The translations under genes and the position numbers were made by a program. 64,000 nucleotides of DNA, from assembly GCA_033344895.1 (NCBI GenBank), contig JAWPMN010000001.1, forward strand, positions 4,162,001-4,226,000, given 5' to 3'. This DNA comes from Alphaproteobacteria bacterium. Lineage in GTDB: Bacteria; Pseudomonadota; Alphaproteobacteria; UBA8366; Aestuariispiraceae. Positions within the stretch are counted from its first letter, which is position 1. Every line of letters begins with the position of its first letter. The notes under the pieces were generated by a model that ran no database searches, was not told the origin of the DNA, and saw only the letters and a program-made list of their open reading frames with translations. Of this stretch, positions 35,321 through 52,983 are shown one piece after another.

Positions 35321-36579
35321 TCGATCAGCATCGTCACCAGCCAAGGCTGCCAGCTCAGGATCACGAGAACTACCAACGTGGTAGCCAGGAACGGCAACAG
35401 GGCCCGGAACAGCGCGCCCGGCCTGACACCGGTCATCGCCGTCGTGACAAACAGCCCGGCCCCGACAGGCGGTGTCAGAAGCCCCAGCACAAGGTTGATG
35501 CAGACCACGACGCCGAAATGAAACGGGTCGATACCGTAATTGCTCTGGGCGATCGGTAACAGAATCGGCACGACCAGAATAAGCGCCGCGATTCCATCCA
35601 GAATCATGCCGACGAACAGCAGCGCGATATTGACCAGCAGCAGGAAGACGAAGGGATCGTCGGTCAGGGCCGACAGCCATGCCGCCAGTTGCTGTGGAAT
35701 CTGCTCATAGATCACGATCCAGCCGAACAGGTTTGCCGCTGCGATGATGAAGACGACGATGGCCGTGTTCAGGCCTGTGCGCAGCAGGATCGTCGGCATC
35801 TTCCGCAGGTTCAGGGCGCCGTACAGGAACCGTCCCAGAAGAAGAGCGACGACGGAGGCCATGGCCGCCGATTCCGTCGGGGTGGCGATCCCGGCCAGTA
35901 TCCCGCCGACAATGACCGCCGGAATCAGCAAGGTCGGCAGCCCCAGCAGCAACGCCTTTCGCCGCTCGATGCCGTCAGGAACCTCGGCGACGGGCAGTTC
36001 CGTCATCCATCCGATCAGCGCCAGGACGATCAGGAACCCGCCGGCCATCATCAGGCCGGGAATGATCCCGGCAATGAACATGTCACCGATCGCGATCTGG
36101 GCCAGAACACCATAGATCACGAACAGCATGGACGGCGGAATGATCGGTGACAGCAGTCCCCCTGCCGCTGTTGTCGCCGCGGCGAAGGAAGGCGCATAGC
36201 CCTGACGGGTCATCTCCGGCACCATTGCGCGCGACATGATCGCTATCTGCGCAGCGGCGGAACCGATGATGGAAGCCATCATCATGTTGACCAGCAGGTT
36301 GATGTAGGCAAGACCGCCGCGAACGCGTCCGACGAATACCCCGGCAAATCCGATTAGCCGTGCGGTGATGCCCCCTTCATTCATCAGTTCCCCCGCCAGC
36401 ATGAAGAGAGGAATGGCAAGAAGCCCGTAGCTCTGAATGCCGGAGAACATCTGCTGCGAGACCGATTGCAGCAGCACCGTCTGGTCGGCGTACCATATGT
36501 AGAACAGGGCCGACGCCGCCAGCACGAAGGCAATCGGCAGACCGATCAACAGCAGGAAAAGGAAGATAGCCCCAACCAT
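35317..36579 (-). CDS. dctM: TRAP transporter large permease (DctM)
   Basis: Twelve-helix DctM subunit of 420 residues. Opening MVGAIFLFLLLIGLPIAFVL and the GLLAIPLFMLAGELMNEGGI stretch are DctM hallmarks, as are AAATTAAGGLLSPIIPPSML, shown in part, and the end-region LNLVLGLLTPPVGAGLFVT. It drives sodium-coupled uptake of an organic acid together with the small permease and the binding protein. It is the last gene of a leftward operon (dioxygenase, dctP, dctQ, dctM), three bases after dctQ. The ligand is not readable from this subunit. Confidence 0.94.
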   Translation of the reverse strand: MVGAIFLFLLLIGLPIAFVLAASALFYIWYADQTVLLQSVSQQMFSGIQSYGLLAIPLFMLAGELMNEGGITARLIGFAGVFVGRVRGGLAYINLLVNMMMASIIGSAAAQIAIMSRAMVPEMTRQGYAPSFAAATTAAGGLLSPIIPPSMLFVIYGVLAQIAIGDMFIAGIIPGLMMAGGFLIVLALIGWMTELPVAEVPDGIERRKALLLGLPTLLIPAVIVGGILAGIATPTESAAMASVVALLLGRFLYGALNLRKMPTILLRTGLNTAIVVFIIAAANLFGWIVIYEQIPQQLAAWLSALTDDPFVFLLLVNIALLFVGMILDGIAALILVVPILLPIAQSNYGIDPFHFGVVVCINLVLGLLTPPVGAGLFVTTAMTGVRPGALFRALLPFLATTLVVLVILSWQPWLVTMLID

Positions 36580-36582
36580 GGG

Positions 36583-37155
36583 TCAGTCCTCCCAACCGGC
36601 GAAATCGGTGATGGATCCGGCAATTCTCTCATACAGGTTGGTCGATGCATGGATCGTCATGGTGATTGCCGTGATCGGCATGACCAGCCAGATCAGATAT
36701 TTCGGAAACCCAAGCGTGTTGGTCGGTTCCTGATAGATGAAATTGAACGTTGCGCCGGAGAATGCCGCCAAATCGAAGCCGCTGGCAATCAGCGCTGCCG
36801 GGTCGTACCAGAGGATGCTGGTCCAGATCAGGGTCGCGGCCAGCACCAGAACGACCGCGTCCACCAAGATCCCGGTCAACCGCCTTGCCCTGTCGGGAAG
36901 GACGTCCTCCAGGATGGTGACCGATATGCCGCGCCGCAGGCGGACTATCGCGGATGCACCGATCATGACCAGCCAGACCATGGCGTAGATCGCCGCCTCG
37001 TCGACCCAGTAGATCGCGTTGTCGGCCGCGCGGGTCACGACATTGAGGAGGATCAGCCCCGTAACCGCGGCGGACAACAGGATCAGGCCCCATCGCTCCG
37101 CCAGCAGAACAGCCCCGGAAATCGATCTGAATACAGACAGCATGTGACGCACCAT
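36583..37155 (-). CDS. dctQ: TRAP transporter small permease (DctQ)
   Basis: Four-helix DctQ subunit, 190 residues. Helix 1 is WGLILLSAAVTGLILLNVVT, followed by the conserved WVDEAAIYAMVWLVMIGAS and RRGISVTILEDVLPDRARR segment that marks this family, then two further helices. A long loop between helices 3 and 4 (about residues 115-150) is larger than usual. It is separated from dctP by a stem-loop and lies three bases before dctM. Confidence 0.9.
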   Translation of the reverse strand: MVRHMLSVFRSISGAVLLAERWGLILLSAAVTGLILLNVVTRAADNAIYWVDEAAIYAMVWLVMIGASAIVRLRRGISVTILEDVLPDRARRLTGILVDAVVLVLAATLIWTSILWYDPAALIASGFDLAAFSGATFNFIYQEPTNTLGFPKYLIWLVMPITAITMTIHASTNLYERIAGSITDFAGWED

Positions 37156-37161
37156 ATGAAA

Positions 37162-37197
37162 CGGGCCGCCCCTCCTTGGAACGGGAGGAGCGGCCCC
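37162..37197 (-). terminator. Stem-loop between dctP and dctQ
   Basis: The plus strand reads GGGCCGCCCCTCC, a short loop, then GGGAGGAGCGGCCCC: a long, slightly mismatched hairpin directly after dctP. On the minus strand it is followed by GTTTCAT. The position parallels the hairpin after the ABC binding-protein gene at 2090 and suggests partial termination or 3' protection of dctP mRNA. Confidence 0.6.
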
Positions 37198-37228
37198 GAA
37201 ACCCGGCCCGAAGGGTCAGGTGGAAAGC

Positions 37229-38783
<1,555 letters not shown>

Positions 38784-38903
38784 GCGGACGCATCCCCTGT
38801 TTCTTTTCTCGAGGAAAAACGCTACGAGGCGTTGAACCTGCCTTCAATGAAATTGGTTTGAAGTGGTTATTCGTTTTTACAATACCAAAGCCGGAGGTTC
38901 GGA

Positions 38904-39878
38904 ATGGTCGCCGCCAACCGACACATCAAGATCGCAGAGCGTGTCTCAACCCGCCTGAAGCTGAAGCAACTGCGGCTGCTTGTTGCCGTGGCCGAACGTT
39001 CCAGCATCCTGCACGCGGCACAGGACCTGAATATCTCGCAGCCCGCGGCGACGAAGCTCATCAAGGATCTGGAACTGGATTTCGGCGTGCGTCTGTTCGA
39101 CCGCACCAATCGCGGGGCCATTCCGACCGCCTTCGGGGAAGCGCTGGTCCGGCATGGCAAACTGATCCTGGCCCAGGTCTATCACGCCGCCCAGGAACTG
39201 GACGATCTGAACGAAGGCAGCGGCGGCCGCGTCGTCGTCGGGACCCTCCTGGCTGCGTCGGCATGGCTGCTTCCCGCCGCGATCAAGACGATGTGCGAGG
39301 ACCGGCCGAATGTCACCATCGCCGTGCGCGACGGCACAAATGACGTGCTGATGCCGGCGCTGAGTGCCGGGGACGTCGATCTTGTGGTCGGGCGATTGCC
39401 GGAATTCCGACACCGCAAGGACCTGGCACAGATCCGATTGCTGGAGGAGGAAACCTGCATCGTCGCCCGTGCCGGTCATGCCCTGGCCCGGAGAGATCGC
39501 GTCGATTTCGCGGATCTGACCGACCATTCCTGGATCCTGCAACCGCCGGAGACCTCCCTGCGGCGTCAGTTCGAGAAGGCCTTCTTCGATCGCGATCTCG
39601 TCCCGCCCGTCGCCGCCGTCGAATCCGTATCCTTTCTGACAAACCGCGAATTGCTGATGCGCACGGACATGCTGGGCGTCTTCCCCTACCATGTGGTGGC
39701 ACCGGAAGTGGCGCGCGGCGATCTGGCAATTCTGCCCTGCCGTGTCGACCTGTCCGGCCGGGCGGTCGGCGTGACCTATCGCCGTGCAGGCGGCCTGTCC
39801 CCGGCGGCGCAGGCCTTCCTGGCCGTGCTGCGCGACACCGCGGCCGGAGCCGCGCCGCCTACACTGCGAGAGGACTGA
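38904..39878 (+). CDS. LysR-type transcriptional regulator
   Basis: A 324-residue LysR regulator; ATG 38904 with GGAGG eight bases upstream. Helix-turn-helix about residues 20-78 (LRLLVAVAERSSILHAAQDL, then NISQPAATKLIKDLE), of the GbpR/PcaQ-like subgroup. The periplasmic-binding-like effector domain occupies residues 105-310. It is divergent from the dioxygenase-TRAP operon, the most likely target, and overlaps the convergent aspartate dehydrogenase gene by 20 bases at its 3' end. The inducer is unknown; an aromatic or amino acid is plausible from context. Confidence 0.9.
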   Translation: MVAANRHIKIAERVSTRLKLKQLRLLVAVAERSSILHAAQDLNISQPAATKLIKDLELDFGVRLFDRTNRGAIPTAFGEALVRHGKLILAQVYHAAQELDDLNEGSGGRVVVGTLLAASAWLLPAAIKTMCEDRPNVTIAVRDGTNDVLMPALSAGDVDLVVGRLPEFRHRKDLAQIRLLEEETCIVARAGHALARRDRVDFADLTDHSWILQPPETSLRRQFEKAFFDRDLVPPVAAVESVSFLTNRELLMRTDMLGVFPYHVVAPEVARGDLAILPCRVDLSGRAVGVTYRRAGGLSPAAQAFLAVLRDTAAGAAPPTLRED

Positions 39879-40656
39879 GCCGGTTTCGCACGGCCCGGAT
39901 CACGCTCATTGCCGTCAGGGCCGACGATTTCGGATTGTCCGGAAGCGGATTGCCCTGAATCCGGAAGCAGAATTTGCCGAAGGCCCCCTGCGCCTCGACT
40001 TCGTGGATATTGCCCCCGGCATCTGGATCGGCGATCAGCGTCGCCCGGGTCGCGTCCAGACCCAGACCCGCCAGGGCGACCGTCGCCGCCACATTGGCGT
40101 TCTTCGGATAGCGCTGGGCCGCCTCCCGGGCCGATCCCTCGAAATGAACTGCGGCGTCCTTGAGCGCCGCCAGATCCAGAACGTCTTCCGCCGCCGACCC
40201 GAGCCAGCCTGCCGGAGGCTTGCGCCCTGTATATCGAACACTGTCCAGACCGCCGATCCGGGCGGCAGACAGCGCATCGATCGCTCCGACCGCGCCTGAC
40301 ACCAGTTCCAGGCGTGCGTTTCCCGCGCGCGCTGACGACTCCAATGTCGCCGCCAGTCCATCATCGGCCAGGGCACCGATGGAAACCGTGATCAGATCGA
40401 TGCCACTGCGCAGAACGGTTTCGCCATGCGCTTTCAAGGCCGCATGTCCGCCGCAATCGACCACACAGACCGGGGCTTGGCGCAGTTGATCGATCCCGTT
40501 CGCGATGTCGATCCCCTGCCCCATTGCCGTTCGCGCCGCCGCCTCTCGCCCCGGCCGGCACAGGACGGATATTGCCCCGACTTCATTCATTTGCCGCAGG
40601 GTCCGGGCAACATATTGCCCGACTGCGCCGAAGCCGATGATTGCGACATGTCCCAT
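39859..40656 (-). CDS. nadX: L-aspartate dehydrogenase (NadX)
   Basis: A 265-residue NAD(P)-dependent dehydrogenase. Nucleotide motif VAIIGFGAVGQYVARTL at residues 4-20; SVGALADD-type strand as VSIGALADDGL; SGAVGAIDALSAARIGGLDS and VRYTGRKPP; then the catalytic-histidine-containing or substituted segment YPKNANVAATVALAGLGLDA, all typical of aspartate dehydrogenase. It makes iminoaspartate (for NAD synthesis) or deaminates aspartate. It sits next to a gene forming the quinolinate precursor, which is of note because both feed quinolinate. It is divergent from the molybdenum hydroxylase gene. Confidence 0.87.
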   Translation of the reverse strand: MGHVAIIGFGAVGQYVARTLRQMNEVGAISVLCRPGREAAARTAMGQGIDIANGIDQLRQAPVCVVDCGGHAALKAHGETVLRSGIDLITVSIGALADDGLAATLESSARAGNARLELVSGAVGAIDALSAARIGGLDSVRYTGRKPPAGWLGSAAEDVLDLAALKDAAVHFEGSAREAAQRYPKNANVAATVALAGLGLDATRATLIADPDAGGNIHEVEAQGAFGKFCFRIQGNPLPDNPKSSALTAMSVIRAVRNRLSPLAV

Positions 40657-40849
40657 TGAAATCGCTCCTGATTGGTTCGGCCGGACAATACCGTCCAGAA
40701 TTCGTCCCTGCTATTCCGATATGAAATATCACAATTCATTCTTCGTATTTGTCATTATATCTGGCGTCCCACACACTCGCCCAAATCGCAACATCCCAAC
40801 CGTCAAAAGAGCGACCCGCGTGGATCTGCCAGGCAACAATTTCGGAAGA

Positions 40850-42970
40850 ATGATCGGCACGGCCGTTCCTCGCCGGGAGGACAAACGCCTTCTGACCGGC
40901 CAGGGACGGTATACCGACGATATCCGACTGCCGGATGCCCTTCACGTTGCCTTCGTTCGCGCCGATTCCATCGGCCCCATCCTCTCGCTCGACCATCCCG
41001 ATGACCCCGGGGATATCGGGGCAACTGCAATCTTCACCGCCAGGGATCTGGGCAAAACAGGCCTGCTGACGGTGAATGCCGTCCTGGCGGATGCGGCCCC
41101 CACGCATTTTCCGATTCTTGCAGGCGATCGCAGTTTTGCCGTGGGGCAGCCGCTGGTGGCTGTCCTCGGCGAAAATCGGGCTGCTGCACAGGACGCCGCC
41201 GAGTCCGTCTTCGTCGACATTGGCAACGCCGAAGGCGGTCCTTTGTTTGCGCACTGCCCCGACAATCGGGCGACGGGAGAGCAGTGGAAAGCAGGGGACT
41301 TCGACGGCGCCGTTGCCAAGGCGGCACATGTCGTTTCAGCGACGGTAATTCATCCGCGCCTGGCACCGGCTTCCCTGGAACCACGGGCAGTCGCGGCCCA
41401 CTACGATGCAGGAACGGACGGCGTGACCGTGTGGCTGTCGACGCAAACGCCGCATCGCGCGCGCAGCGAGTTCAGCCGCATTCTGGGTGTTTCGGAAGAC
41501 CGGATTCGGGTCATCGCTCTGGATGTCGGCGGTGCGTTCGGGATGAAGGCGTCGCTCTATCCGGAAGAGGTTCTTGTCGTATGGGCCGCGCTTCATCTGA
41601 AGCGGTCTGTGCGTTGGACGGCAAGCCGCTCGGAAGACTTCCTGTCGGCAACCCATGGCCGCGGTGCGCAAACGCAGGGCCGGTTGGCGGTTGATGCCGA
41701 CGGCCGTTTCCTGGGCCTGCAGGCACGCATCGACTGCCCGTTGGGCCATTGGCTACCGACCAGTGCGGCCGTACCGGCCTGGAATGCGGGACGCATGCTG
41801 CCCGGCCCCTATGACATCCCAGTTCTCAACATTGAAACACGCGCCATTCTAAGCCCGACGGCACCGGTGGGGATCTATCGCGGCGCGGGACGGCCTGAAG
41901 CCACCGCGCTCATGGAACGCCTCGCATCTGCCGCAGCGGAGGCGAGTGGCATCGATCCAATCGAGATACGGCGGCGCAATCTGCTGCGTCCGGATGCGCT
42001 TCCCCATAAGGGCATCACCGGTCGACACCTCGATTCCGGGGACTATCCCGCTGCACTGGAGCGGCTGAGGGAAGCTTCGGCGTATGACGATCTGTGCCGG
42101 TCCATTCACGACCGGCGCTCCGGCGGCGAGACGGTTGGGCTGGGCATCGCCTTCTATGTCGAGCCCTGCGGACAAGGCTGGGAGAGCGCCCGGGTACGGC
42201 GCGAACCCGACGGACGGATCGTCGCCGAGGTCGGGGCTTCGAGCCAGGGGCACGGGCGGGAAACCGCCTTCGCGCAGATCCTCGCGGATCGGCTGAACGC
42301 GCCAATGAAGGCCATAACTGTACATTTCGGCGACACGGAAACGACACCCAAGGGCATCGGGGCATTGGCCAGCCGCAGCACCCCGATCGGCGGAAGCGCC
42401 CTTTTGCTGGCGGCGGAGGAAGTGGCCCGACGGCTTCACAACGTGCCGGACGATGAGGTCGTCGAAGCGGAGGTCAGATACGAAGCGGAAGGCGAGGCCT
42501 GGGGGTATGGCGTCTATCTGGCCGTAATGGCCATCGACTCAGATACCGGCGTCCCGACTTTGGAACGGCTGGTCTGTGTCGACGATGCCGGCACGATCAT
42601 CAATCCGATGATGGTCGAGGGTCAGATCCGCGGCGGCATCGCACAGGGGATCGGGGAGGCCCTGCTGGAAAGCATCGTCTATTCGCCCGACGGCCAGTTG
42701 ATGACGGGATCCTTCAGTGATTACGCAATGCCCCGTGCAGACAACATGCCGCCGGTACGGATCGAGAAGACGGAAACCCCCTCCCCGGTCAACCGTCTGG
42801 GAGCCAAGGGTGTTGGGGAAGCCGGCACAATCGGCGCCCCGGCCGCCATCCTGAATGCCGCCTATGACGCATTAAGGGCATGCGGCAGCGTTCCGCATCT
42901 GTCCATGCCGCTGACATCCGAAAAACTCTGGCGGGCCATGAACGGCCTCCTCGAACAGCAGGACGACTGA
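40850..42970 (+). CDS. Xanthine-dehydrogenase-family molybdopterin-binding subunit, orphan
   Basis: Large (CoxL/XdhB-type) subunit of about 706 residues from ATG 40850; GTG 40820 is an alternative, and the longer open frame from 40505 overlaps nadX. The a/b hammerhead begins at RREDKRLLTGQGRYTDDIRL. Cofactor motifs: DVGGAFGMKASLYPEE, IYRGAGRPEATALMERL, VGASSQGHGRETAFAQ, GIGALASRSTPIGGSA, and the catalytic glutamate in GAKGVGEAGTIGAPA. Such subunits normally work with separate FAD and 2Fe-2S subunits, and neither is encoded here. The DapA-family gene begins three bases downstream, so they form one operon. Substrate unknown; an aromatic N-heterocycle or aldehyde is possible. Confidence 0.85.
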   Translation: MIGTAVPRREDKRLLTGQGRYTDDIRLPDALHVAFVRADSIGPILSLDHPDDPGDIGATAIFTARDLGKTGLLTVNAVLADAAPTHFPILAGDRSFAVGQPLVAVLGENRAAAQDAAESVFVDIGNAEGGPLFAHCPDNRATGEQWKAGDFDGAVAKAAHVVSATVIHPRLAPASLEPRAVAAHYDAGTDGVTVWLSTQTPHRARSEFSRILGVSEDRIRVIALDVGGAFGMKASLYPEEVLVVWAALHLKRSVRWTASRSEDFLSATHGRGAQTQGRLAVDADGRFLGLQARIDCPLGHWLPTSAAVPAWNAGRMLPGPYDIPVLNIETRAILSPTAPVGIYRGAGRPEATALMERLASAAAEASGIDPIEIRRRNLLRPDALPHKGITGRHLDSGDYPAALERLREASAYDDLCRSIHDRRSGGETVGLGIAFYVEPCGQGWESARVRREPDGRIVAEVGASSQGHGRETAFAQILADRLNAPMKAITVHFGDTETTPKGIGALASRSTPIGGSALLLAAEEVARRLHNVPDDEVVEAEVRYEAEGEAWGYGVYLAVMAIDSDTGVPTLERLVCVDDAGTIINPMMVEGQIRGGIAQGIGEALLESIVYSPDGQLMTGSFSDYAMPRADNMPPVRIEKTETPSPVNRLGAKGVGEAGTIGAPAAILNAAYDALRACGSVPHLSMPLTSEKLWRAMNGLLEQQDD

Positions 42971-42973
42971 GAC

Positions 42974-43927
42974 ATGAAATACACACGCAATCAGGCAAAG
43001 GACTATGCCCGTGAGACCATGCGCGGCATCTGGGCTGCAGCATTGCAGCCGTTCAATGCGGATCTGAGCGTTGACGAGGACGGGTTCCGCCGGAACATCC
43101 GCCACTGGGTCGACGATCTGGGCATTCGCGGCCTGTTCATCGCCGGAAAGCAGGGCGAGTTCTTTTCCATGTCGCTGGCGGAACGCAAACGCGCCTTCGA
43201 GATCGCTGTCGAGGAAACCGGCGACAAGGCGGGTACCATCATGTCTGCCTCCGATCAGAACATGGATACCGTGATCGAACTGGCAGAACACGCGCAGGCG
43301 GTCGGTGCGGACAGCATTGTCGTGCATGCCCCGGTCCTGCATTTCGTCCATGACCGCGACGAAATCCTGTATCGCTATTACAAGACGATCAGCGACCGGG
43401 TGGATATCGGAATCGCGATGTGGAGCCATCCGGATTCCGGCTATCTGATGTCGCCGGAACTCTGTGCCCGGATCGCGGAACTGCCGAACATCGTGGCGAT
43501 CAAGTACAGCGTCGAACGCGCAATGTATGCCAAACTGACGGAGCTGGCGGGCGACAAGATCCTGGTCAGCACGGCATCGGAAGACGAATGGCTGGACAAC
43601 ATAATCGATCTGGGCTGGCAGCTATACCTCTGTTCCTCCCCGCCCTATCTGATCCAGACTGCAAACGACCGGCGGATGAACGAATACACGGAACTGGCCT
43701 TTGCCGGGAAACATGACGAAGCCCGCAAGGTCAGCGCCAGCCTCGATCCTGTCCGCAAGGCATTGAAAGGCACACGGCCGGGCGGAAAGCCGCAATCGCA
43801 CCAGAAATACTGGCAGGAACTGCTGGGCCAGGTCGGCGGCCCCGTACGTCCGCCGATGATCGGCCTGACGCAGGATGAACGCGACCGAACAAGGGCGGCC
43901 TTCGAAGGCTGCGGTTTGCAACTGTAA
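42974..43927 (+). CDS. Dihydrodipicolinate synthase/N-acetylneuraminate lyase family protein
   Basis: TIM-barrel class I aldolase family protein of 317 residues. The Schiff-base lysine is Lys177 in IVAIKYSVE. Unlike DapA, the GTTGE loop is GKQGE (residues 58-62) and the YN-P motif is WSHP (150-153), so both substrate-site signatures are changed and lysine biosynthesis is unlikely. A long tail (about 285-317) extends past the usual end. It follows the molybdenum hydroxylase gene by three bases, so it probably acts on the product of that enzyme as an aldolase, hydratase or decarboxylase. A strong hairpin ends the operon. Confidence 0.85.
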   Translation: MKYTRNQAKDYARETMRGIWAAALQPFNADLSVDEDGFRRNIRHWVDDLGIRGLFIAGKQGEFFSMSLAERKRAFEIAVEETGDKAGTIMSASDQNMDTVIELAEHAQAVGADSIVVHAPVLHFVHDRDEILYRYYKTISDRVDIGIAMWSHPDSGYLMSPELCARIAELPNIVAIKYSVERAMYAKLTELAGDKILVSTASEDEWLDNIIDLGWQLYLCSSPPYLIQTANDRRMNEYTELAFAGKHDEARKVSASLDPVRKALKGTRPGGKPQSHQKYWQELLGQVGGPVRPPMIGLTQDERDRTRAAFEGCGLQL

Positions 43928-43984: not shown

Positions 43985-45142
43985 TCAGCCGACTGACGCG
44001 CGGAACACCTCGGCATATTCGGCGGCACTGAGCTTTTGCGGGTTCGTTCCGGCGGACGGATCGCGTTCGGCCAGTTCGCCGATATAGTCGGCCCGGTCAG
44101 CGGGAACGCCGATTTCGCCCAGCGTATCCGGAATGCCCAGGCGCTCGCGGAATTCCAGGGTCCAGTCCAGAACGCCGGAGAAATCCTGCTTCGCCAGACC
44201 CAGGGTACGGGCCAGGATCGGCATGCGATCGGCGATCACCGCCTCGTTCTTGCGCATGACATGCGGCAGGACGATGCCGTTGGTCAGGCCGTGATGAGTA
44301 TCGTATGTCGCCCCCACGGCGTGGCTGATGGCATGGACACCGCCAAGGCCTTTCTGGAACGCCGTAGCGCCCATCGATGCGGCGGCCAGCATGTCGGCCC
44401 GTGCCTCAATGTCCTTTCCATCATCGAAGGCCCGCGGCAACGCCGACTGGATCAGGCGCATGCCTTCCAGGGCGATTCCGTCCGCCATCGGGTGGAAGCC
44501 GGGGGCACAGAAGGCTTCGAAGCAATGGACATAGGCATCGATACCGGTGGCGGCCGTCACCTTCGCCGGCAGACCGACGGTGAGTTCCGGATCGGAAACC
44601 ACGACGCCCGGCAGCATACGCGGGTGGAAGATGATCTTCTTTTCGTGCGTGTCCGGATGGGTCACGACACTGGCGCGTCCCACCTCGGAACCGGTGCCCG
44701 ACGTGGTCGGCACGGCAATGATCGGGGCGATCGCATCCGCGTCGGCACGGGTCCACCAGTCGCCGATATCTTCGAAATCCCAGATCGGGCGGGTTTGACC
44801 GACCATGAAGGCAATGGCCTTGCCGACATCCAGACCGCTGCCGCCGCCAAAGGCAACGACGCCGTCCGCGCCATGCGCCTTGTACGCCGCCACGCCGTTG
44901 TCGACATTGGACTGAACTGGGTTGCCGCGCACATCGGCATAGAGCGCCGCCGCACAGCCGCTTTCAGCCAGTACCGCCATCGCGTTCTGAACGATGGGAA
45001 GGTCCTTCAGCCCTTCGTCGGTCACCAGAAGGGGGCGTTTCACGCCCAGTTCGGCACAGGCCTTGCCAAGTTCCTTGATGCGACCGGGTCCGGACCAGAC
45101 TTTGGTCGGGAAGCCCCAGTTACCGGTAATCGTCTTCGTCAT
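43985..45142 (-). CDS. Iron-containing alcohol dehydrogenase
   Basis: Group III alcohol dehydrogenase, 385 residues. Nucleotide-binding region GVVAFGGGSGLDVGKAIAFM (about residues 94-113), PTTSGTGSEVGRASVV, and the iron site: GIDAYVHCFEAF, then GGVHAISHAVGATYDTHHGL with the histidines. Family members oxidise or reduce primary alcohols and hydroxy acids with NAD. It is the last gene of the leftward TRAP-glutamine-synthetase-like operon, 40 bases after the aldehyde dehydrogenase. In context it may oxidise a hydroxyl group of the imported or glutamylated substrate; inference only. Confidence 0.92.
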   Translation of the reverse strand: MTKTITGNWGFPTKVWSGPGRIKELGKACAELGVKRPLLVTDEGLKDLPIVQNAMAVLAESGCAAALYADVRGNPVQSNVDNGVAAYKAHGADGVVAFGGGSGLDVGKAIAFMVGQTRPIWDFEDIGDWWTRADADAIAPIIAVPTTSGTGSEVGRASVVTHPDTHEKKIIFHPRMLPGVVVSDPELTVGLPAKVTAATGIDAYVHCFEAFCAPGFHPMADGIALEGMRLIQSALPRAFDDGKDIEARADMLAAASMGATAFQKGLGGVHAISHAVGATYDTHHGLTNGIVLPHVMRKNEAVIADRMPILARTLGLAKQDFSGVLDWTLEFRERLGIPDTLGEIGVPADRADYIGELAERDPSAGTNPQKLSAAEYAEVFRASVG

Positions 45143-45182
45143 TTCTGCGATCCACTTACGTAGGTCACGCGTCCGGCCTTGT

Positions 45183-46565
45183 TCAGGCGGTACGCCGTTT
45201 CAGGTGATAGGATTTCGGGCGGGTCAGGTTATGGAAACCGATCACCGACAGTCCGCCGCCGCGTCCGGTATTCTTGCAACCCGTCCAGCACAGGCCAGGG
45301 TCGAGATAGTCGGCACGGTTCAGGAAAACCGTCCCGGTTTCGATCCGGTCGCCAACGTTCTGAGCACGCTCGACATCCTGCGTCCAAAGGCTGGCAGTCA
45401 GGCCGAACTCGCTGTCATTCATCAGGTCGATGGCTTCCTCATCGGAAGACACCTTCATGATACCGACCACCGGGCCGAAGCTTTCGTCGCGCATGACGCG
45501 CATGTCATGGGTGACATCGGTCAGGATCTGCGGCGACAGATAGGCACCGCCATCATCGGCAGGAGACTTGGCGATATGTGCCGTCGCACCGGCGGCAATG
45601 GCCTCGTCAATCTGGGCACGGACTTCCGTGGCGAAGCGGACATGCGCCATCGGACCAAGGGTCGTCTCCTTGTCCAGCGGATTGCCGAGGACGTATCCGT
45701 TGACGATCTCGACCGCCTTTTCGACGAAGGTATCGAACAGGGCCTCGTGCACATAGATGCGCTCAATCCCGCAGCAGCACTGGCCTGAATTGAACATGGC
45801 CCCATCGATCAGCGTCGCCACCGCCGCGTCGATGTCGGCATCCTCCATGACATAGCCCGGGTCCTTGCCGCCCAGCTCCGTCGCAACGCCGATGAAGGTG
45901 CCGGCCGCGGCGCGTTCGATATTGCGGCCACCGCCGACCGAACCGGTGAAATTGACAAAGTCCACGGAGCGCGAAGACAGCAGTTCCGACGTCGTATCGT
46001 GGTCCAGGAAGATGTTGTCGAAGACATCCTTCGGCACACCCGCACTGTGGAACGCTTCCGCCATATGCTCACCGACCAGCAGGGTCTGGGTCGCATGCTT
46101 CAACAACACGGTGTTGCCGGCGATCAGGGCCGGGGCGACCGTGTTGATCGCCGTCATATAGGGGTAGTTCCAGGGGGCGATGACCAGGACGAGCCCATGC
46201 GGCACACGCTTGATATAGCGCGTAAAAGTCTCGTCTTCGCCGACCTTGATATCCGCCAGAGCCTCTTGCGCGATCTTAGCCATGTGGGAGGCGCGTTCGT
46301 TGACGCCACCAAACTCGCCGCCGTAGCGGATCGGGCGGCCCATCATCTTCGCCAGATCAGGGACGATCCGGTCGTTCATTTCGCCGAGCGCCGCGACACC
46401 GGCCATCACCAGATCGATGCGTTCCTGCATCGGGCGGGCGGCCCAATCCTTCTGGGCGGCGCGCATCTGCGCGGTGCGTGCTTTGGCCGCCTCGGCGGTG
46501 AGCGCCGGGCGTTCAGCAAAAACCGATCCGTCGATCGGGGAGATACAACGAAGCATCTTACTCAT
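45183..46565 (-). CDS. Aldehyde dehydrogenase family protein
   Basis: NAD(P)-dependent aldehyde dehydrogenase of 460 residues from ATG 46565; the frame is open further upstream into the preceding gene, but GGAAAGACGG precedes this ATG. Motifs: VIAPWNYPYMTAINTVAPAL, NFTGSVGGGRN, the catalytic glutamate in ATELGGKDPGY, and the catalytic cysteine in FNSGQCCCGIERIYVHE. Three consecutive cysteines at the active site are common in this branch. It lies between the glutamine-synthetase-like gene and the alcohol dehydrogenase, as in pathways that oxidise a gamma-glutamylated aldehyde (compare PuuC). The specific aldehyde is unknown. Confidence 0.92.
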   Translation of the reverse strand: MSKMLRCISPIDGSVFAERPALTAEAAKARTAQMRAAQKDWAARPMQERIDLVMAGVAALGEMNDRIVPDLAKMMGRPIRYGGEFGGVNERASHMAKIAQEALADIKVGEDETFTRYIKRVPHGLVLVIAPWNYPYMTAINTVAPALIAGNTVLLKHATQTLLVGEHMAEAFHSAGVPKDVFDNIFLDHDTTSELLSSRSVDFVNFTGSVGGGRNIERAAAGTFIGVATELGGKDPGYVMEDADIDAAVATLIDGAMFNSGQCCCGIERIYVHEALFDTFVEKAVEIVNGYVLGNPLDKETTLGPMAHVRFATEVRAQIDEAIAAGATAHIAKSPADDGGAYLSPQILTDVTHDMRVMRDESFGPVVGIMKVSSDEEAIDLMNDSEFGLTASLWTQDVERAQNVGDRIETGTVFLNRADYLDPGLCWTGCKNTGRGGGLSVIGFHNLTRPKSYHLKRRTA

Positions 46566-46602
46566 CTTATCCGTCTTTCCGGTGTGGGCTGTCGGCTTGG
46601 TC

Positions 46603-47964
46603 CTAGGCCCGTTCAAATCCGCGGGCGATTTCGTAATCCGTCACCACGCTTTCGAATTCCTCGATCTCCCACTCCGCCGCGCGGCCGTAATGGTCGATCA
46701 CATCATCTCCGAATGCCTCACGCAGCATCTTCGAACCCAGCAATGCGTCGCGTGCCTTGATCAGGCTGGTCGGAATCTGTGCGCCCTTCCCCGCATAGGC
46801 ATCGCCGCTCAGCGGCGGGTCCAGCGGCAGCTTGTCCTCGATCCCCTTGATGCCGGCCGCGATCTGCGCCGCCATGGCAAGGTAGGGATTCATATCGGAT
46901 CCGCCGATGCGGCATTCGACACGAACGCCTTTCGTCCCCTCACCACAGAGCCGGAAACCGGCGGTGCGGTTGTCGACCGACCAGATCACGCGCGTCGGCG
47001 CGAAAGATCCCTTCTGGAACCGTTTGTAGCTGTTGATATAGGGCGCGAGGAAATAGGTCATATCGGGCGCATACGCAATAAGGCCCGCCAGATAATTCTT
47101 CATCAGCGCGGACATGCCGTGCTTGTCGTCGGCATCAAAGAAAACCGGCTTCCCGTCCTGCCACAGGGACTGGTGGATATGTGAGGACGACCCGACCCGC
47201 TGGTGATGCCATTTGGAAAGGAAGCTGGCCGAATGTCCATTCTGCCAGGCGATTTCCTTGGTCGCATGTTTCGCAATGGTGTGGAAGTCGGCGGCGTCGA
47301 GCGCCGGGCCGTACTTGATGTTCAGTTCCTCCTGACCTGCTTCCGCCTCCCCCTTCGTGTTCTCGATGGGCAGGCCGGCGGCATAGAGGTGATTACGCAG
47401 CGGGCGCATCACATGCTCTTCCTTGCTGGTCTGGAAAATATGGTAATCCTCGTTGTAGTCGCTGATCGGCTCGAGCGTGCGATAGCCGTCCTGACGGAGC
47501 TCCGCATAGGTCTTCTTGAACAGGAAGAATTCCAGTTCAGTCGCCATCATCGGCGTGAATCCCATCGCCTCAAGCCGGGCGATCTGCTTCTTCAGGATCT
47601 GTCGTGGCGCGTGCGGCACCGGCTCATGCGTGTGGTGATCCAGCACGTCGCACAGTACCATTACCGTGCCTTCCAGCCACGGCACGGGGCGCAACGTGGC
47701 CAAGTCCGGCTTCATGATGTAGTCGCCGTAGCCCCGTTCCCAGCTCGTCGAGGCATAGCCGTCCGGGGTGGCCATTTCGAGATCGGTCGCCAGGAGATAG
47801 TTGCAGCAATGCGTTTCTTCCCAGGCACTGTTTACGAAATGCGCCGCGTGGAAACGTTTGCCCATGAGGCGGCCCTGCATGTCGATGATGCAGGTCAGGA
47901 CGGTGTCGATCTTGCCATCCGCTACCTGCGCCTTCAGCGCCTCGAAACTCAAAACCTCCGGCAT
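46603..47964 (-). CDS. Glutamine synthetase-like gamma-glutamyl-amide ligase
   Basis: A 453-residue member of the glutamine synthetase superfamily, closest in style to PuuA, IpuC and GlnA4-type ligases rather than nitrogen-assimilating GlnA. Catalytic segments: ATELEFFLF (metal glutamates), GEAEAGQEELNIKYGPAL, SSSHIHQSLWQDG, and the ATP/phosphate arginines in ANSYKRF-type NSYKRFQKGSFAPTRVIW and VECRIGGSDMNPYLA. The adenylylation-site tyrosine of GlnA is not evident. Such enzymes couple glutamate to an amine. It is co-directional with TRAP genes upstream and aldehyde/alcohol dehydrogenases downstream, which argues for amine catabolism. Confidence 0.88.
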   Translation of the reverse strand: MPEVLSFEALKAQVADGKIDTVLTCIIDMQGRLMGKRFHAAHFVNSAWEETHCCNYLLATDLEMATPDGYASTSWERGYGDYIMKPDLATLRPVPWLEGTVMVLCDVLDHHTHEPVPHAPRQILKKQIARLEAMGFTPMMATELEFFLFKKTYAELRQDGYRTLEPISDYNEDYHIFQTSKEEHVMRPLRNHLYAAGLPIENTKGEAEAGQEELNIKYGPALDAADFHTIAKHATKEIAWQNGHSASFLSKWHHQRVGSSSHIHQSLWQDGKPVFFDADDKHGMSALMKNYLAGLIAYAPDMTYFLAPYINSYKRFQKGSFAPTRVIWSVDNRTAGFRLCGEGTKGVRVECRIGGSDMNPYLAMAAQIAAGIKGIEDKLPLDPPLSGDAYAGKGAQIPTSLIKARDALLGSKMLREAFGDDVIDHYGRAAEWEIEEFESVVTDYEIARGFERA

Positions 47965-48007
47965 TTGGTAAACTCCGATCCGGGTTTAGACAGGTTGATT
48001 TTGAGGG

Positions 48008-48043
48008 AGGGGCTTCGGCACGCCGAAACGCGCCGAAGCCGTT
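48008..48043 (-). terminator. Stem-loop after dctP of the second TRAP operon
   Basis: GGCTTCGGC (48011-48019) pairs with GCCGAAGCC (48032-48040); the arms contain a further CGCCG/CGGCG pairing. It follows the dctP stop within ten bases and precedes the glutamine-synthetase-like gene, with no T-tract. It is the third hairpin of this kind after a binding-protein gene in this window. Confidence 0.55.
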
Positions 48044-48047
48044 GCCC

Positions 48048-49082
48048 TTAACTGTAACGGTACGGCCGACCCGCCTTCTGCATGTCGGCATTGTACTTTT
48101 TGAAGATCTCGACGACCTTCGCCTTGGTTTCCGACTCCGCGGCGATTTCGTCCCAGAATTTCTGGGCGGCCTGCTCGACCTGATCCCATTCCGCGTCGGG
48201 GATGGACGTCAGCTGCATCTTCGTGCCGTGGACGCGCAGGCTGGCTTCGCCACCCCAGTACCACCACTGACGATAGTAGTGCGACTGGTCGCAGCACACG
48301 CGGAACAGGGTCTGCATGTCTTCCGGCAGTTCGTTCCACCGGTCCATGTTGGCGAAGAAAGATCCCGCCCAGGCACCGGAAATGTTGTTCGTCAGGAAGT
48401 AGTTCGTCACATCCGCCCAGCCGACGGTGTAGTCTTCGGTGATGCCCGACCAGGCAATCCCGTCCAACTCACCGGTCTGAACGGCGACTTCGATGTCTTC
48501 CCACGGCAGGGTCACCGGCACAACACCGAACTGCGCCAGGAAACGACCGGCCGTCGGGAAGGTGAAGACGCGCTTGCCCTTCAGGTCTTCCAGCGAACGG
48601 ATCGGATCCTTCGTCGCGAAATGGCACGGATCCCAGGACCCGGCGGAGATGTGCTTGACCCCGACCTTGGAATACTCAGCGTCCCAGATTTCGTTCAGGC
48701 CATACTGGTTGAACAGCACCGGCACATCCAGGGAATAGCGCGACGCGAACGGGAAATAGCCGCCGAAAACCGTGACTTCCGTCGGAGAGGCCATGCTGTC
48801 GTCGTCGGACTGAACCGCGTCGATCGTGCCGCGCTGCATCGCCCGGAACAGCTCTCCCGTCGGGACCAGCTGGTCAGCGAAGAACAGCTCGATCTGCATC
48901 TTGTCGCCAGCGATCTTGTTGAACATGTCGATGGCGGGCTTCACCACGTGCTCGGCAAGCGCCGGGCCGGCATAGGTCTGCATGCGCCACTTGATCGTCG
49001 ACTGCGCGATCGCCGGGGTGGCCAAAGCCGCCGCCGGGGCCGCAACCGCCGCACCTTTCAGAAAATTACGTCTTGTTGTCAT
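48048..49082 (-). CDS. dctP: TRAP transporter substrate-binding protein, Tat-exported
   Basis: A 344-residue DctP/TakP-type binding protein with a twin-arginine signal, MTTRRNFLKGAAVAAPAAAL, cleaved near AIAQ (residue 27). AAGGAGG lies eight bases before the ATG. Binding-protein segments: TYAGPALAEHVVKPAIDMFN, FFADQLVPTGELFRAMQRGT, DLKGKRVFTFPTAGRFLAQF and VQTGELDGIAWSGITEDYTV. The C-terminal half is rich in tryptophan and tyrosine (HYYRQWWYWGG), as in the TakP-like group binding keto acids and related compounds. Ligand unknown. Separated from dctM by 79 bases. Confidence 0.92.
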   Translation of the reverse strand: MTTRRNFLKGAAVAAPAAALATPAIAQSTIKWRMQTYAGPALAEHVVKPAIDMFNKIAGDKMQIELFFADQLVPTGELFRAMQRGTIDAVQSDDDSMASPTEVTVFGGYFPFASRYSLDVPVLFNQYGLNEIWDAEYSKVGVKHISAGSWDPCHFATKDPIRSLEDLKGKRVFTFPTAGRFLAQFGVVPVTLPWEDIEVAVQTGELDGIAWSGITEDYTVGWADVTNYFLTNNISGAWAGSFFANMDRWNELPEDMQTLFRVCCDQSHYYRQWWYWGGEASLRVHGTKMQLTSIPDAEWDQVEQAAQKFWDEIAAESETKAKVVEIFKKYNADMQKAGRPYRYS

Positions 49083-49161
49083 ATCCTAGCCTCCTTGCTC
49101 AGACAGTTGTTGGAACTCTCACGGCCTCTTGAACGAGGCACTGTTATTGGTTTGACCACCC

Positions 49162-50484
49162 TCAATTCGCGTAGACGGTTTCCGGCAGCCACAATGCGAT
49201 CTGCGGGAACGTCATCACAATGGCCAGGGCCGCGACCATGACCAGAACGAAGGGACCGATGGAACGATAGATGTCGCGCAGACCGATCTCCGGCGGCGCC
49301 ATCGCCCGCATCAGGAACAGGTTGTAGCCGAAGGGCGGCGTCATGTAGGCGATCTGTGTGGTGATCGTATAGAGCACGCCATACCAGATCAGATCGAACC
49401 CCAGGGCTCCGACCAGCGGAACATACAGGGGCGCCACGATGACCAGCATCGCCGTGTCGTCCAGAAAGGTCCCCATCAGGATGAAGCTGAGCTGCATCAG
49501 GATCAGGATCATCCACGGGTTCAGCCCCAGTTGCTCCGTGAACAGGCTTTCGATCGCCTTCACTGCGCCCAGACCGTCGAAGATCGCCCCGAAACCCAAG
49601 GCAGCCAGGATGATCCACATGAACATGCAGGATATGCCCAGCGTGTTGCGAACGCTCTTTTCGAACACCTCGCGGGTCATCCGACGTTTCAGGATCGCGG
49701 CCAGCAGCGCCGTCAGCGCCCCGATGGCGGAGCTTTCAACCAGAGACGTCCAACCGTTGACGAAGGGCACCATCATCGCGGCAAAGATCGCGATGGGCAG
49801 CAGCCCGGCGCGCAGCAGACGAAGCTTCTCCGCCATGGGGATGTCGCGTTCCTCCTTGTCGAGAGGCGGCCCCAGTTCCGGCTGCATCCGGCACCGGACA
49901 TAGATGTACAGGATGAACATCGACGCCATCATCAGGCCGGGGATGACCCCCGCGAGCCAGAGCTGTCCGACCGGCTGCCGCGCGATCATCGCATAGAGCA
50001 CGAGCACCACCGAGGGCGGCACGAGAATGCCCAGAGACGATCCCGCCTGAATCACGCCCGTAACCATGATCTTGTCATAGCCGCGGCGCAGCAGTTCCGG
50101 CAGGGCGATGGTCGCGCCGATGGCCATGCCGGCGACCGACAAGCCGTTCATGGCGGAAATCAGCACCATCAACCCAATGGTCCCGATGGCAAGTCCGCCG
50201 CGAACCGGCCCCATCCAGACGTGAAACATCTTGTAGAGGTCGTCCGCGATGCGGCTTTCCGACAGCACGTAGCCCATGAAAATGAACATCGGCAAGGTCA
50301 GCAGCGGATACCATTTCATCAGTTTCATCGCCGCCGCGAAGGGAATGTCGACGCCGCCGACTCCCCAAAGCAACACGCCGGACAGCGACGCCACGAAACC
50401 GATTGCGCCGAACACGCGCTGCCCCGTCATGAGCATCAGCATCATGGACGAGAACATCAGGATCGCGATCCACTCGTAGGACAT
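49162..50484 (-). CDS. dctM: TRAP transporter large permease (DctM)
   Basis: A 440-residue DctM protein with about twelve hydrophobic segments. Typical regions: WYPLLTLPMFIFMGYVLSES, GLAIGTIGLMVLISAMNGLS, IQAGSSLGILVPPSVVLVLY, and the helix LILMQLSFILMGTFLDDTAM. The conserved end YMTPPFGYNLFLMRAMAPPE is present. Its start overlaps the dctQ stop by one base (TGATG), indicating coupled translation. It belongs to the leftward operon that begins with the amidohydrolase at 51913. Confidence 0.94.
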   Translation of the reverse strand: MSYEWIAILMFSSMMLMLMTGQRVFGAIGFVASLSGVLLWGVGGVDIPFAAAMKLMKWYPLLTLPMFIFMGYVLSESRIADDLYKMFHVWMGPVRGGLAIGTIGLMVLISAMNGLSVAGMAIGATIALPELLRRGYDKIMVTGVIQAGSSLGILVPPSVVLVLYAMIARQPVGQLWLAGVIPGLMMASMFILYIYVRCRMQPELGPPLDKEERDIPMAEKLRLLRAGLLPIAIFAAMMVPFVNGWTSLVESSAIGALTALLAAILKRRMTREVFEKSVRNTLGISCMFMWIILAALGFGAIFDGLGAVKAIESLFTEQLGLNPWMILILMQLSFILMGTFLDDTAMLVIVAPLYVPLVGALGFDLIWYGVLYTITTQIAYMTPPFGYNLFLMRAMAPPEIGLRDIYRSIGPFVLVMVAALAIVMTFPQIALWLPETVYAN

Positions 50485-51086
50485 CAGGTGTCTTCCTTAC
50501 CGCTGATGAGGTGATCGATATCGCGGATCAATTCCGCCAGGACCTGCAGCAGCATCAGAAAGACGCCGGCGATCAGAACCAGCTTCACCGGCCACAGGAA
50601 AGGCCGCCAGGCGGTGGAACTGCGCTCCAGATAGCCCAGCAATTCGCCGGCCGCGTCCGGACCGCCCGTCAGGAACGCCGTCAATAAATCCCAGTAGAAG
50701 GCATAGGGCTCCGTTCCGAAGTAACCCAGGGAATAGGCCATGGAGACCATCGCGCCCTGAAACAGAATGCCGAGATAGAACAGGAGGCACAGGACGGAGA
50801 CGGAATCGACCATCGCCTTCGTTCGCACCGACCAGCTTCCATAGAACAGGTCCATCCGGACATTGGAGCCAAGCTGAATCGAGTACGGCCCACCCAGAAT
50901 GAAATAGGCGACCATCAGAAACTGGGCGACCTCCAGCGTCCAGAGCGACGGCTGGAAGAAGCTCTTCGAGATCGACGAATACAGCAGCACGCCCATCATG
51001 GCGAAGATGCCGTACATGGTCATGCGGCCGATCCCCTTGTTCATCAGGTCGACCATTCGAACGAAGCTCATCAGCGCACGCGGCAT
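50484..51086 (-). CDS. dctQ: TRAP transporter small permease (DctQ)
   Basis: A 200-residue DctQ-family protein with four hydrophobic segments. After helix 1 (GIFAMMGVLLYSSISKSFFQ) comes the family segment SLWTLEVAQFLMVAYFILGG, then LGSNVRMDLFYGSWSVRTKA, in which the VRMD motif after the second helix is diagnostic. The loop between helices 3 and 4 (about residues 122-158) is long. The gene begins eight bases after the amidohydrolase stop and overlaps dctM by one base. Confidence 0.9.
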   Translation of the reverse strand: MPRALMSFVRMVDLMNKGIGRMTMYGIFAMMGVLLYSSISKSFFQPSLWTLEVAQFLMVAYFILGGPYSIQLGSNVRMDLFYGSWSVRTKAMVDSVSVLCLLFYLGILFQGAMVSMAYSLGYFGTEPYAFYWDLLTAFLTGGPDAAGELLGYLERSSTAWRPFLWPVKLVLIAGVFLMLLQVLAELIRDIDHLISGKEDT

Positions 51087-51094
51087 TGCGCCCC

Positions 51095-51913
51095 CTACCC
51101 CGCTTTTTCCATGACGCCACCCTCGGCAAGCAGCCCGGACGCCCGTTTTGCCAGTCGGCCCAGCACGGCAGCGATACGATCACGCCCCGCCGCGTCAGCC
51201 AGCAACTCGTTACGAATCTCGATCATCACATTCGGCAGCCCGCGCGGGACCGCGTGCAGCGCCAGAGTATGCGTTACTCCATCGGCCGGTCCATACGGTT
51301 CGTTCCGGCGAAAGCGCAGAGACTGTGCGCCTTCATCCTCCGACGCGGCCTGAAGCAGGGCATCGGCAAAACGCGAATCGCTGTCATGCAGGATGCCGAT
51401 ATCCATCTCACGGCGCTGCCCGAGATAGACCGGCGTAAAGGAATGGATCGTCATCAAAATCGGCAACCGACCAAGCGCCAGGGCTCCATCCAGCACATCG
51501 GCCACCCGATCCCGGAACGGCCCATAGACCGAACGTGTGCGCTCGAGACGAGCCGATCGATCCAATCCGGCATTCCCGGGCACATCGGTCGATTCGCTGC
51601 GCGCCGGCATGGCGGATGGCTCACTCGGCGGCCGGTTGCAGTCATAGATCAGACGCGAAACGCAGGCTGCCACGAGGGGCGAATCCAGGTCCCGCGACAG
51701 GGTTTTCGCAACCGCGCGCGCGCCCGGATCCCAGGCAATATGGCTCGACAGATCCTCTTCCCGAAGGCCAAGGCGCGACAGGGATTCCGGAATATGGTTG
51801 GAGGCATGTTCGCACACGAGCACGAATGCCCCCTCACCCTCGGGATTCAGCGTTTCCGCAACTTCGGCAGGACTCAATTTCAATGTCGAGACCGGACCGG
51901 ACATTGTCCGCAT
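51095..51913 (-). CDS. N-formylglutamate amidohydrolase family protein
   Basis: A 272-residue FGase (PF05013-type) zinc hydrolase. ATG 51913 with AGGGGG just upstream; ATG 51904 is an alternative. Conserved elements: VCEHASNHIPESLSRLGL, HIAWDPGARAVA, IYDCNRPPSE, LMTIHSFTPVYLG and VMIEIRNELLAD. Known members hydrolyse N-formylglutamate in histidine degradation (HutG) or related N-acyl amino acids. No hut genes are present. As the first gene of an operon with a gamma-glutamyl-ligase-like enzyme and two dehydrogenases, it is a good candidate for the final amide hydrolysis that releases glutamate. Divergent from the RpiR-type regulator. Confidence 0.87.
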   Translation of the reverse strand: MRTMSGPVSTLKLSPAEVAETLNPEGEGAFVLVCEHASNHIPESLSRLGLREEDLSSHIAWDPGARAVAKTLSRDLDSPLVAACVSRLIYDCNRPPSEPSAMPARSESTDVPGNAGLDRSARLERTRSVYGPFRDRVADVLDGALALGRLPILMTIHSFTPVYLGQRREMDIGILHDSDSRFADALLQAASEDEGAQSLRFRRNEPYGPADGVTHTLALHAVPRGLPNVMIEIRNELLADAAGRDRIAAVLGRLAKRASGLLAEGGVMEKAG

Positions 51914-52002
51914 GCTCCCCCTGAACACCCGCTTCACGGCCTGTCATGACCGTTTCTTGAAACCATTTTTTCAGAGTTTGAGCCGCAGTCAATTCCTTTT
52001 CT

Positions 52003-52011
52003 GAAAATTTC
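52003..52011. promoter_or_regulatory. GAAA-TTTC palindrome in RpiR divergent region
   Basis: GAAAATTTC, a perfect odd palindrome, lies in an AT-rich patch between the amidohydrolase operon and the RpiR regulator. GAAA-TTTC cores are common in operators of RpiR-type regulators. A nine-base site is weak evidence alone. Confidence 0.3.
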
Positions 52012-52098
52012 TTTACAGAGTTGCGAAGTTTGATGGATAGTTTCCAAAAGGGAGCGGGACACAGCCCGACGAAGTACGGGTAAACCGGGTAGAAAACC

Positions 52099-52983
52099 AT
52101 GTCGACATCTGCGCGCGGGGCACAGAACGGGACGGTAGCGGAGCGCATTCACGCGCGCTTCCACGACCTTACCCGCGCCGAACGACAACTGGCGAATGCG
52201 CTGCTGGAGAACTATCCGGTTCTGGGCCTCAGTTCCATCGCCGCCGTGGCGGAGGCCTCCGGCGTGTCCATGCCGACTGTCGCCCGCATGGCAAAAAAGC
52301 TCGGTTTTGAGGGGTTTCCGGAGCTAAAGGAGAAGCTGCGTTCGGAGTTGGAAGAAACGATCACCAATCCGATCGCCAAGCATGATCGCTGGGCGGACAG
52401 CGCCCCGGACACACACATCCTGAACCGCTTCGCCGAAGCCGTTCAGGAGAACATGCATCAGACCCTGCGGCAGATCTCACTGGAAAGCTTCAACCAGACC
52501 GTCGAACTGCTGTCGAGCACGGACCGGGAGCTTTACGTCGTCGGCGGGCGCCTGACCCGCGCCCTGGCGGACTACTTCTTCACCCATATGCAGGTCATCC
52601 GCGGCGGCCTGACCCTTATCAAGTCGAACTCAAACACTTGGCCGCACTATGTCCTGAACATGAAGCCGGGCGATATCCTGGTGATCTTCGACATCCGCCG
52701 TTATGAATACGACCTTCTGCGTCTGGCGGAAATGGCGCGCTCCCAGGGCGCGAGCGTGATCGTCTTTACCGATCAATGGCGGTCCCCCGTCGCCAAGCAT
52801 GCCGCCCACAGTTTCCATTGCCGGATCGAGGCACCCTCCGCCTGGGATTCCAACGTGGCGATCATGTTCGTGGTCGAGGCGATCATCGCGGCGGTACAGG
52901 ATGTCCGCTGGGATGAAACCCGGGACCGGATGAAGGCTCTGGAAGACCTGTTCGACCAGACGAAACTGTTCAAGAAATTCTGA
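52099..52983 (+). CDS. MurR/RpiR family transcriptional regulator
   Basis: A 294-residue regulator. The N-terminal RpiR helix-turn-helix (residues 15-90) reads LGLSSIAAVAEASGVSMPTV, then ARMAKKLGFEGFPELKEKLR, the family signature. The C-terminal half is a SIS domain (about 130-270) with LYVVGGRLTRALADYFFTHM, IRGGLTLIKSN and DILVIFDIRRYEYD; the phosphosugar-site Ser/Thr residues of sugar-responsive members are partly replaced (VGGR rather than G-G-S), so the effector may not be a sugar phosphate. It faces the TRAP/amidohydrolase operon, its most likely target. Confidence 0.9.
   Translation: MSTSARGAQNGTVAERIHARFHDLTRAERQLANALLENYPVLGLSSIAAVAEASGVSMPTVARMAKKLGFEGFPELKEKLRSELEETITNPIAKHDRWADSAPDTHILNRFAEAVQENMHQTLRQISLESFNQTVELLSSTDRELYVVGGRLTRALADYFFTHMQVIRGGLTLIKSNSNTWPHYVLNMKPGDILVIFDIRRYEYDLLRLAEMARSQGASVIVFTDQWRSPVAKHAAHSFHCRIEAPSAWDSNVAIMFVVEAIIAAVQDVRWDETRDRMKALEDLFDQTKLFKKF

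Follow-up and report, generated by a model that had tools for sequence, protein, structure and literature searches.

Which compound is taken up and degraded by the gene cluster at positions 43985 to 52983 of the 64,000-nucleotide stretch analysed here (the window; contig JAWPMN010000001.1, positions 4,162,001 to 4,226,000, from an alphaproteobacterium of the Aestuariispiraceae), and is this combination of genes a new one? The cluster contains a tripartite ATP-independent periplasmic (TRAP) transporter, a ligase resembling glutamine synthetase (GS), two dehydrogenases, a hydrolase of the N-formylglutamate amidohydrolase (FGase) family and an RpiR-type regulator. Our analysis suggests that it encodes the gamma-glutamylation of ethanolamine and is orthologous to the eto genes of Phaeobacter sp. 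MED193, a reading to which we assign a probability of about 0.92. The remaining uncertainty concerns the substrates of the enzymes in this organism and not the kind of system.

The published ethanolamine locus of MED193 (MED193_10021-10056) starts with an RpiR regulator and continues with gamma-glutamylglycine amidohydrolase, EtoV, EtoW, EtoX, ethanolamine gamma-glutamylase and two dehydrogenases, acting on gamma-glutamylacetaldehydeamide and gamma-glutamylethanolamide (PMC10132767). Each of the eight genes of our cluster is represented there, with order and orientation unchanged; the MED193 genome was compared as the record "Roseobacter sp. MED193" (L036 in our numbering of loci), which is without locus tags, and its locus was recognised by strain and gene content. 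Read in the direction of transcription, the minus strand of the window carries the FGase-family gene, encoding a probable gamma-glutamylglycine amidohydrolase, GGAH (51095-51937; PF05013, 137 bits; 50% identical to the MED193 protein), then dctQ for the small permease, EtoV (50484-51086; PF04290, 60 bits; 65%), dctM for the large permease, EtoW (49162-50484; PF06808, 219 bits; 64%), and dctP for a solute-binding protein of the EtoX type (48048-49082; PF03480, 76 bits; 91%). These are followed by the genes for the GS-like ligase, a probable ethanolamine gamma-glutamylase, ETAGA (46603-47964; PF00120, 317 bits; 75%), an aldehyde dehydrogenase, probably the gamma-glutamyl-aminoacetaldehyde dehydrogenase GAADDH (45183-46616; PF00171, 388 bits; 79%), and an iron alcohol dehydrogenase (Fe-ADH), probably the gamma-glutamylethanolamide dehydrogenase GETADH (43985-45142; PF00465, 166 bits, and PF25137; 56%). 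The regulator gene rpiR (52099-52983; HTH_6, PF01418, 63 bits, and SIS, PF01380, 76 bits; 51%) is located divergently on the plus strand. Two further differences were seen: the dctM alignment exceeds the length of the query (64% over 114%), and the intergenic region of MED193 shows no match to a palindrome pattern of the window that is described below. The leftward operon with a divergent RpiR gene that had been described in the original prediction was thus confirmed by the open reading frames (ORFs), seven on the minus strand and one on the plus strand, and by Pfam matches, which pass the curated cut-off for each of the eight genes. Since adjacent genes of the minus-strand run overlap briefly or are separated by at most 83 bases, it is plausible that the seven genes form a single operon. 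In MED193, EtoX binds ethanolamine with a dissociation constant of 7.9 uM, and levels of five proteins encoded in the locus are raised on phosphorylethanolamine (PMC10132767); ethanolamine binding and induction have thus been shown for orthologues elsewhere.

The binding protein is the part of the system from which the substrate can be judged most directly. It is identical to the chain of PDB entry 4uab at 272 of 318 residues. This entry is Csal_0678 of Chromohalobacter salexigens in complex with ethanolamine; Glu220 coordinates the ligand, and aromatic side chains surround it (PMC12410723). Position 220 of the 4uab chain is a threonine, and the single glutamate within six residues of it lies three positions earlier, where it corresponds to E216 of the window protein. 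Assuming a numbering offset of three, we infer that E216 is the published Glu220; it is invariant in all 98 aligned sequences (the window, 4uab, 80 named loci and 16 relatives). Csal_0678 is reported to be without the arginine by which TRAP binding proteins select carboxylates (PMC4646407). Judging by its identity to Csal_0678, with which it shares the stretch GKRVFTFPTAG unchanged, the window protein probably lacks this arginine as well. Ethanolamine as a TRAP ligand has been termed a particular surprise (PMC5812351). The binding protein thus limits the likely substrates to ethanolamine and amino alcohols very close to it.

It might be considered that the same cycle works mainly on another small amino alcohol, for example (S)-2-amino-1-propanol (alaninol), which would be converted via gamma-glutamylalanine to alanine. 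The sequence group of 4uab has a second entry, 4xf5, which we take to be the same protein with (S)-2-amino-1-propanol bound, and conservation is lower for Fe-ADH and the FGase-family enzyme than for the transporter. The ligand that has been characterised for the orthologues is, however, ethanolamine (PMC10132767, PMC12410723), and the comparison, made without a pocket model, offers no residue pointing to a larger ligand. We consider alaninol as the main substrate very unlikely. A degradation of ethanolamine by ethanolamine ammonia-lyase (the Eut route) was rejected: EutB (PF06751) was not found in the genome carrying the window, a single contig of 4.64 Mb that is 98.8% complete, whereas among 14 control genomes only E. 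coli was positive.

Family names alone would also allow a simpler explanation, in which ligase and hydrolase are no more than a glutamine synthetase and an N-formylglutamate deformylase standing in an unrelated mix of genes. GlnA is indeed the best NCBIfam match of the ligase, though below the cut-off: the ligase reaches 229.9 bits against the GlnA model TIGR00653, which demands 429.15 bits for a type I glutamine synthetase. With the gamma-glutamylputrescine synthetase model NF045547 it scores 184.2 bits (cut-off 650), which likewise does not place it with the Puu enzymes. Compared with solved GS chains, it reaches 779 bits with 5dm3, to which it is identical at 328 of 450 residues, and 578 bits with 11zs, whereas all others remain at or below 175 bits. 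The 5dm3 chain is presumably a C. salexigens protein encoded next to Csal_0678. Five further GS-family genes are present in the genome, one of them scoring 470 bits to PF00120, so that ammonia assimilation need not rest on this ligase. In addition, three other FGase-family genes are found in the genome (L117:7222-8052, L118:7909-8865 and L119:7399-8340), and the gene set stays together in related loci, as described below. Based on the model cut-offs, the nearest solved chains and the conserved gene order, an ordinary glutamine synthetase with a deformylase was rejected and is extremely unlikely. The FGase-family gene of L119 adjoins a gene resembling a carboxylate-amine ligase, which we liken to the YbdK type.

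For the ethanolamine gamma-glutamylation locus the following course of events is proposed, with the substrate of each enzyme in this organism inferred from orthology and the literature. EtoX would capture periplasmic ethanolamine, which would be imported by DctQM, and the GS-like ligase, at the expense of ATP, would attach it to the gamma-carboxyl group of glutamate, yielding gamma-glutamylethanolamide. Fe-ADH and subsequently the aldehyde dehydrogenase would oxidise the hydroxyl group to a carboxylate, and the resulting gamma-glutamylglycine would be split by the FGase-family enzyme into glycine and glutamate, which could be used again. The solved relatives of the two dehydrogenases obtained with strict E limits (3vz0 with 248 bits and the methanol dehydrogenase chain 8zrl with 232 bits) are not informative, and for the hydrolase a single solved chain was found, 2odf (Atu2144). 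The hydrolase changes fastest of the eight proteins, being 73% identical to its counterpart in the near relative L101, compared with 91-99% for the other seven.

To see how far the layout is conserved, we used the best 80 of at least 585 relatives (from at least 592 matching stretches of genome contigs). These are the loci with the highest similarity, some of them closely related to each other; a gene was counted as matched when its alignment spanned over 25% of the query. In 59 of these 80 closest loci the whole set of eight is matched with order and orientation unchanged, and the grouping is therefore not due to chance. Taken singly, dctM and dctP are matched in 80 loci each, dctQ in 78, the hydrolase in 70, RpiR in 69, the ligase in 68, the aldehyde dehydrogenase in 67 and Fe-ADH in 65. 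Among the 21 incomplete loci, nine have sequence that ends on at least one side (L009, L018, L019, L030, L031, L032, L057, L058 and L059), and in the other twelve at least one gene is unmatched within the stretch covered (L013, L015, L033, L038, L044, L047, L056, L061, L065, L067, L073 and L079). The binding protein is found at E 1e-80 or better in 17 of the 43 genomes of the same order, the window genome included. Among plasmids, a near search yielded partial matches in 15 records; a Ruegeria plasmid had the highest coverage with 57%, and none reached 80%.

Several observations weigh against the ethanolamine reading. No ligase match is present in 12 of the 80 loci, of which three (L032, L057 and L058) have sequence ending downstream of the binding protein, and among the 16 other genomes of the order with an EtoX-like protein, nine show a ligase match in the fetched stretch and seven show none. 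In the locus of Pacificispira spongiicola (L013/L102), a species probably of the same genus, Fe-ADH is unmatched, and the aldehyde dehydrogenase is without a match in L015, L103 and L104; the cycle is thus not always kept together. The search for an Fe-ADH substitute in L013 covered two of the ORFs after the aldehyde dehydrogenase, one encoding a histidine kinase and the other a sigma-54 response regulator. The identities of Fe-ADH (56%) and the FGase-family enzyme (50%) to the MED193 proteins are low enough that their substrates could drift. Furthermore, the MED193 binding protein is also elevated without phosphate (2.14, marked +), showing that induction is not solely by ethanolamine, and EtoX is the sole protein of that locus for which an assay is given in the available part of the report (PMC10132767).

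Additional genes were observed in some of the related loci, based on greedy ORF lists that contain spurious antisense ORFs and were not used for the counts. In L040 dctP and the ligase gene stand further apart and have a Na/Pi-cotransporter family gene between them; L049 belongs to the same cluster, and the spacing is also longer in L082. In L048, which clusters with L081, a DUF4336 gene is inserted between dctM and dctP. Three same-order genomes (L110, L111 and L113) contain EtoX-like TRAP systems with binding proteins of 61-65% identity, an unchanged E216 position and no ligase match nearby. At L110:1713-10060, dctQMP and a GlpR-like regulator are divergent from GlpK-like and glycerol-3-phosphate oxidase-like genes, all three Glp-type matches being below the curated cut-offs, and in L111 and L113 the distance from dctQ to GlpK-like genes is about 3.6 kb. 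It is possible that these TRAP systems serve glycerol or a related compound.

The cycle of glutamylation, two oxidations and release of glutamate, fed by a TRAP transporter, had been put forward in the original prediction, and its logic agrees with the literature for this locus and is very probably right. It is not new, since the combination of a TRAP importer with an FGase-family hydrolase, which the prediction took for a novelty, is already in print for MED193 (PMC10132767) and was proposed earlier for C. salexigens by Vetting et al. 2015, as given in citing papers (PMC10132767, PMC6529630, PMC9397018, PMC4646407). These papers differ in the standing they give to the C. salexigens pathway, which is called demonstrated in one (PMC10132767) and predicted in silico in another (PMC6529630). 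In a review, its four enzyme steps are assigned to PF00120, PF00465, PF00171 and PF05013, the last listed as gamma-glutamylglycine hydrolase (PMC9397018), and our cluster has the same protein family at each step. This comparison, like that with 4uab and 5dm3, was made protein by protein. A further counterpart is the GlnA4 pathway of Streptomyces coelicolor, in which ethanolamine is gamma-glutamylated and, after two predicted oxidations, an FGase-family enzyme is predicted to release glycine and glutamate; it has a short-chain dehydrogenase and a putative permease where the window has Fe-ADH and the TRAP transporter, and a figure legend names its last gene a glutamine amidotransferase (PMC6529630). 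Assays of the enzymes of the TRAP-linked pathway were not reported in the titles and abstract openings of the open-licence papers retrieved by our literature searches.

The operon is probably controlled by RpiR, and the intergenic region offers candidate sites. The 64 kb window has two copies of the palindrome TGNAR-N6-YTNCA and no others; they lie at 51958-51973 and 52002-52017, in the spacer that separates rpiR from the operon. Each copy overlaps a promoter-like site, one in each direction: at the first copy the overlap is with the second hexamer of a sigma70-like site directed towards the operon, at the second copy with the first hexamer of a site directed towards rpiR. The number of promoter-like sites in the intergenic region (two) is not above the shuffle mean of 2.4. 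The pattern was followed in 70 intergenic regions, comprising the window and loci that have both rpiR and the hydrolase gene 30-1200 bases apart and an alignment that comes close to the N-terminus of RpiR; excluded beforehand were L001-L004 and L013 (duplicate of L102). It is present in 43 of the 70 regions, whereas in 100 dinucleotide-shuffled versions of the set it appeared in 1.3 regions on average and never in more than 4, a comparison to be read with the fact that the pattern was picked on these same regions and that many loci are closely related (L101 nearly equals the window). Against an operator speak the 27 regions without the pattern, including those of MED193 and P. spongiicola (L102). 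That a repressor acts at the two palindromes is a reasonable guess. In a limited search on RpiR, covering titles and abstract openings of open-licence literature, no operator for an eto regulator was reported.

At lower coordinates in the window, a second cluster (35317-43927) contains another TRAP transporter, 3-hydroxyanthranilate 3,4-dioxygenase, a LysR regulator, aspartate dehydrogenase, a large subunit of the xanthine dehydrogenase type and a dihydrodipicolinate synthase (DHDPS) family gene, and perhaps encodes an aromatic or pyridine-acid pathway. The DHDPS-family gene (42974-43927) is the downstream neighbour of the operon, convergent to it and outside the run. A link of the operon to the genes at 39859-43927 was considered and is not supported by the 80 named loci, none of which has a match to the DHDPS-family, xanthine-dehydrogenase-type or aspartate dehydrogenase genes (E 1e-10, more than 30% coverage). 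In the ORF list of L033 a xanthine-dehydrogenase-type ORF with 26% identity was seen, and in the near-identical relative L101 all three genes lie beside the operon.

The system is already known, its gene set and gene order have been published, and this copy is an ordinary one. The inferred pathway is very probably real and sits in a genome without an EutB match. One might go further and propose that the cycle in this lineage is tuned to C3 amino alcohols plus ethanolamine, and that the SIS domain of RpiR senses a gamma-glutamyl intermediate, the regulator working from the two palindromes; we regard this as unlikely. If it were true, the palindromes would be, as far as our limited search of the RpiR literature shows, the first defined operator for an eto regulator.

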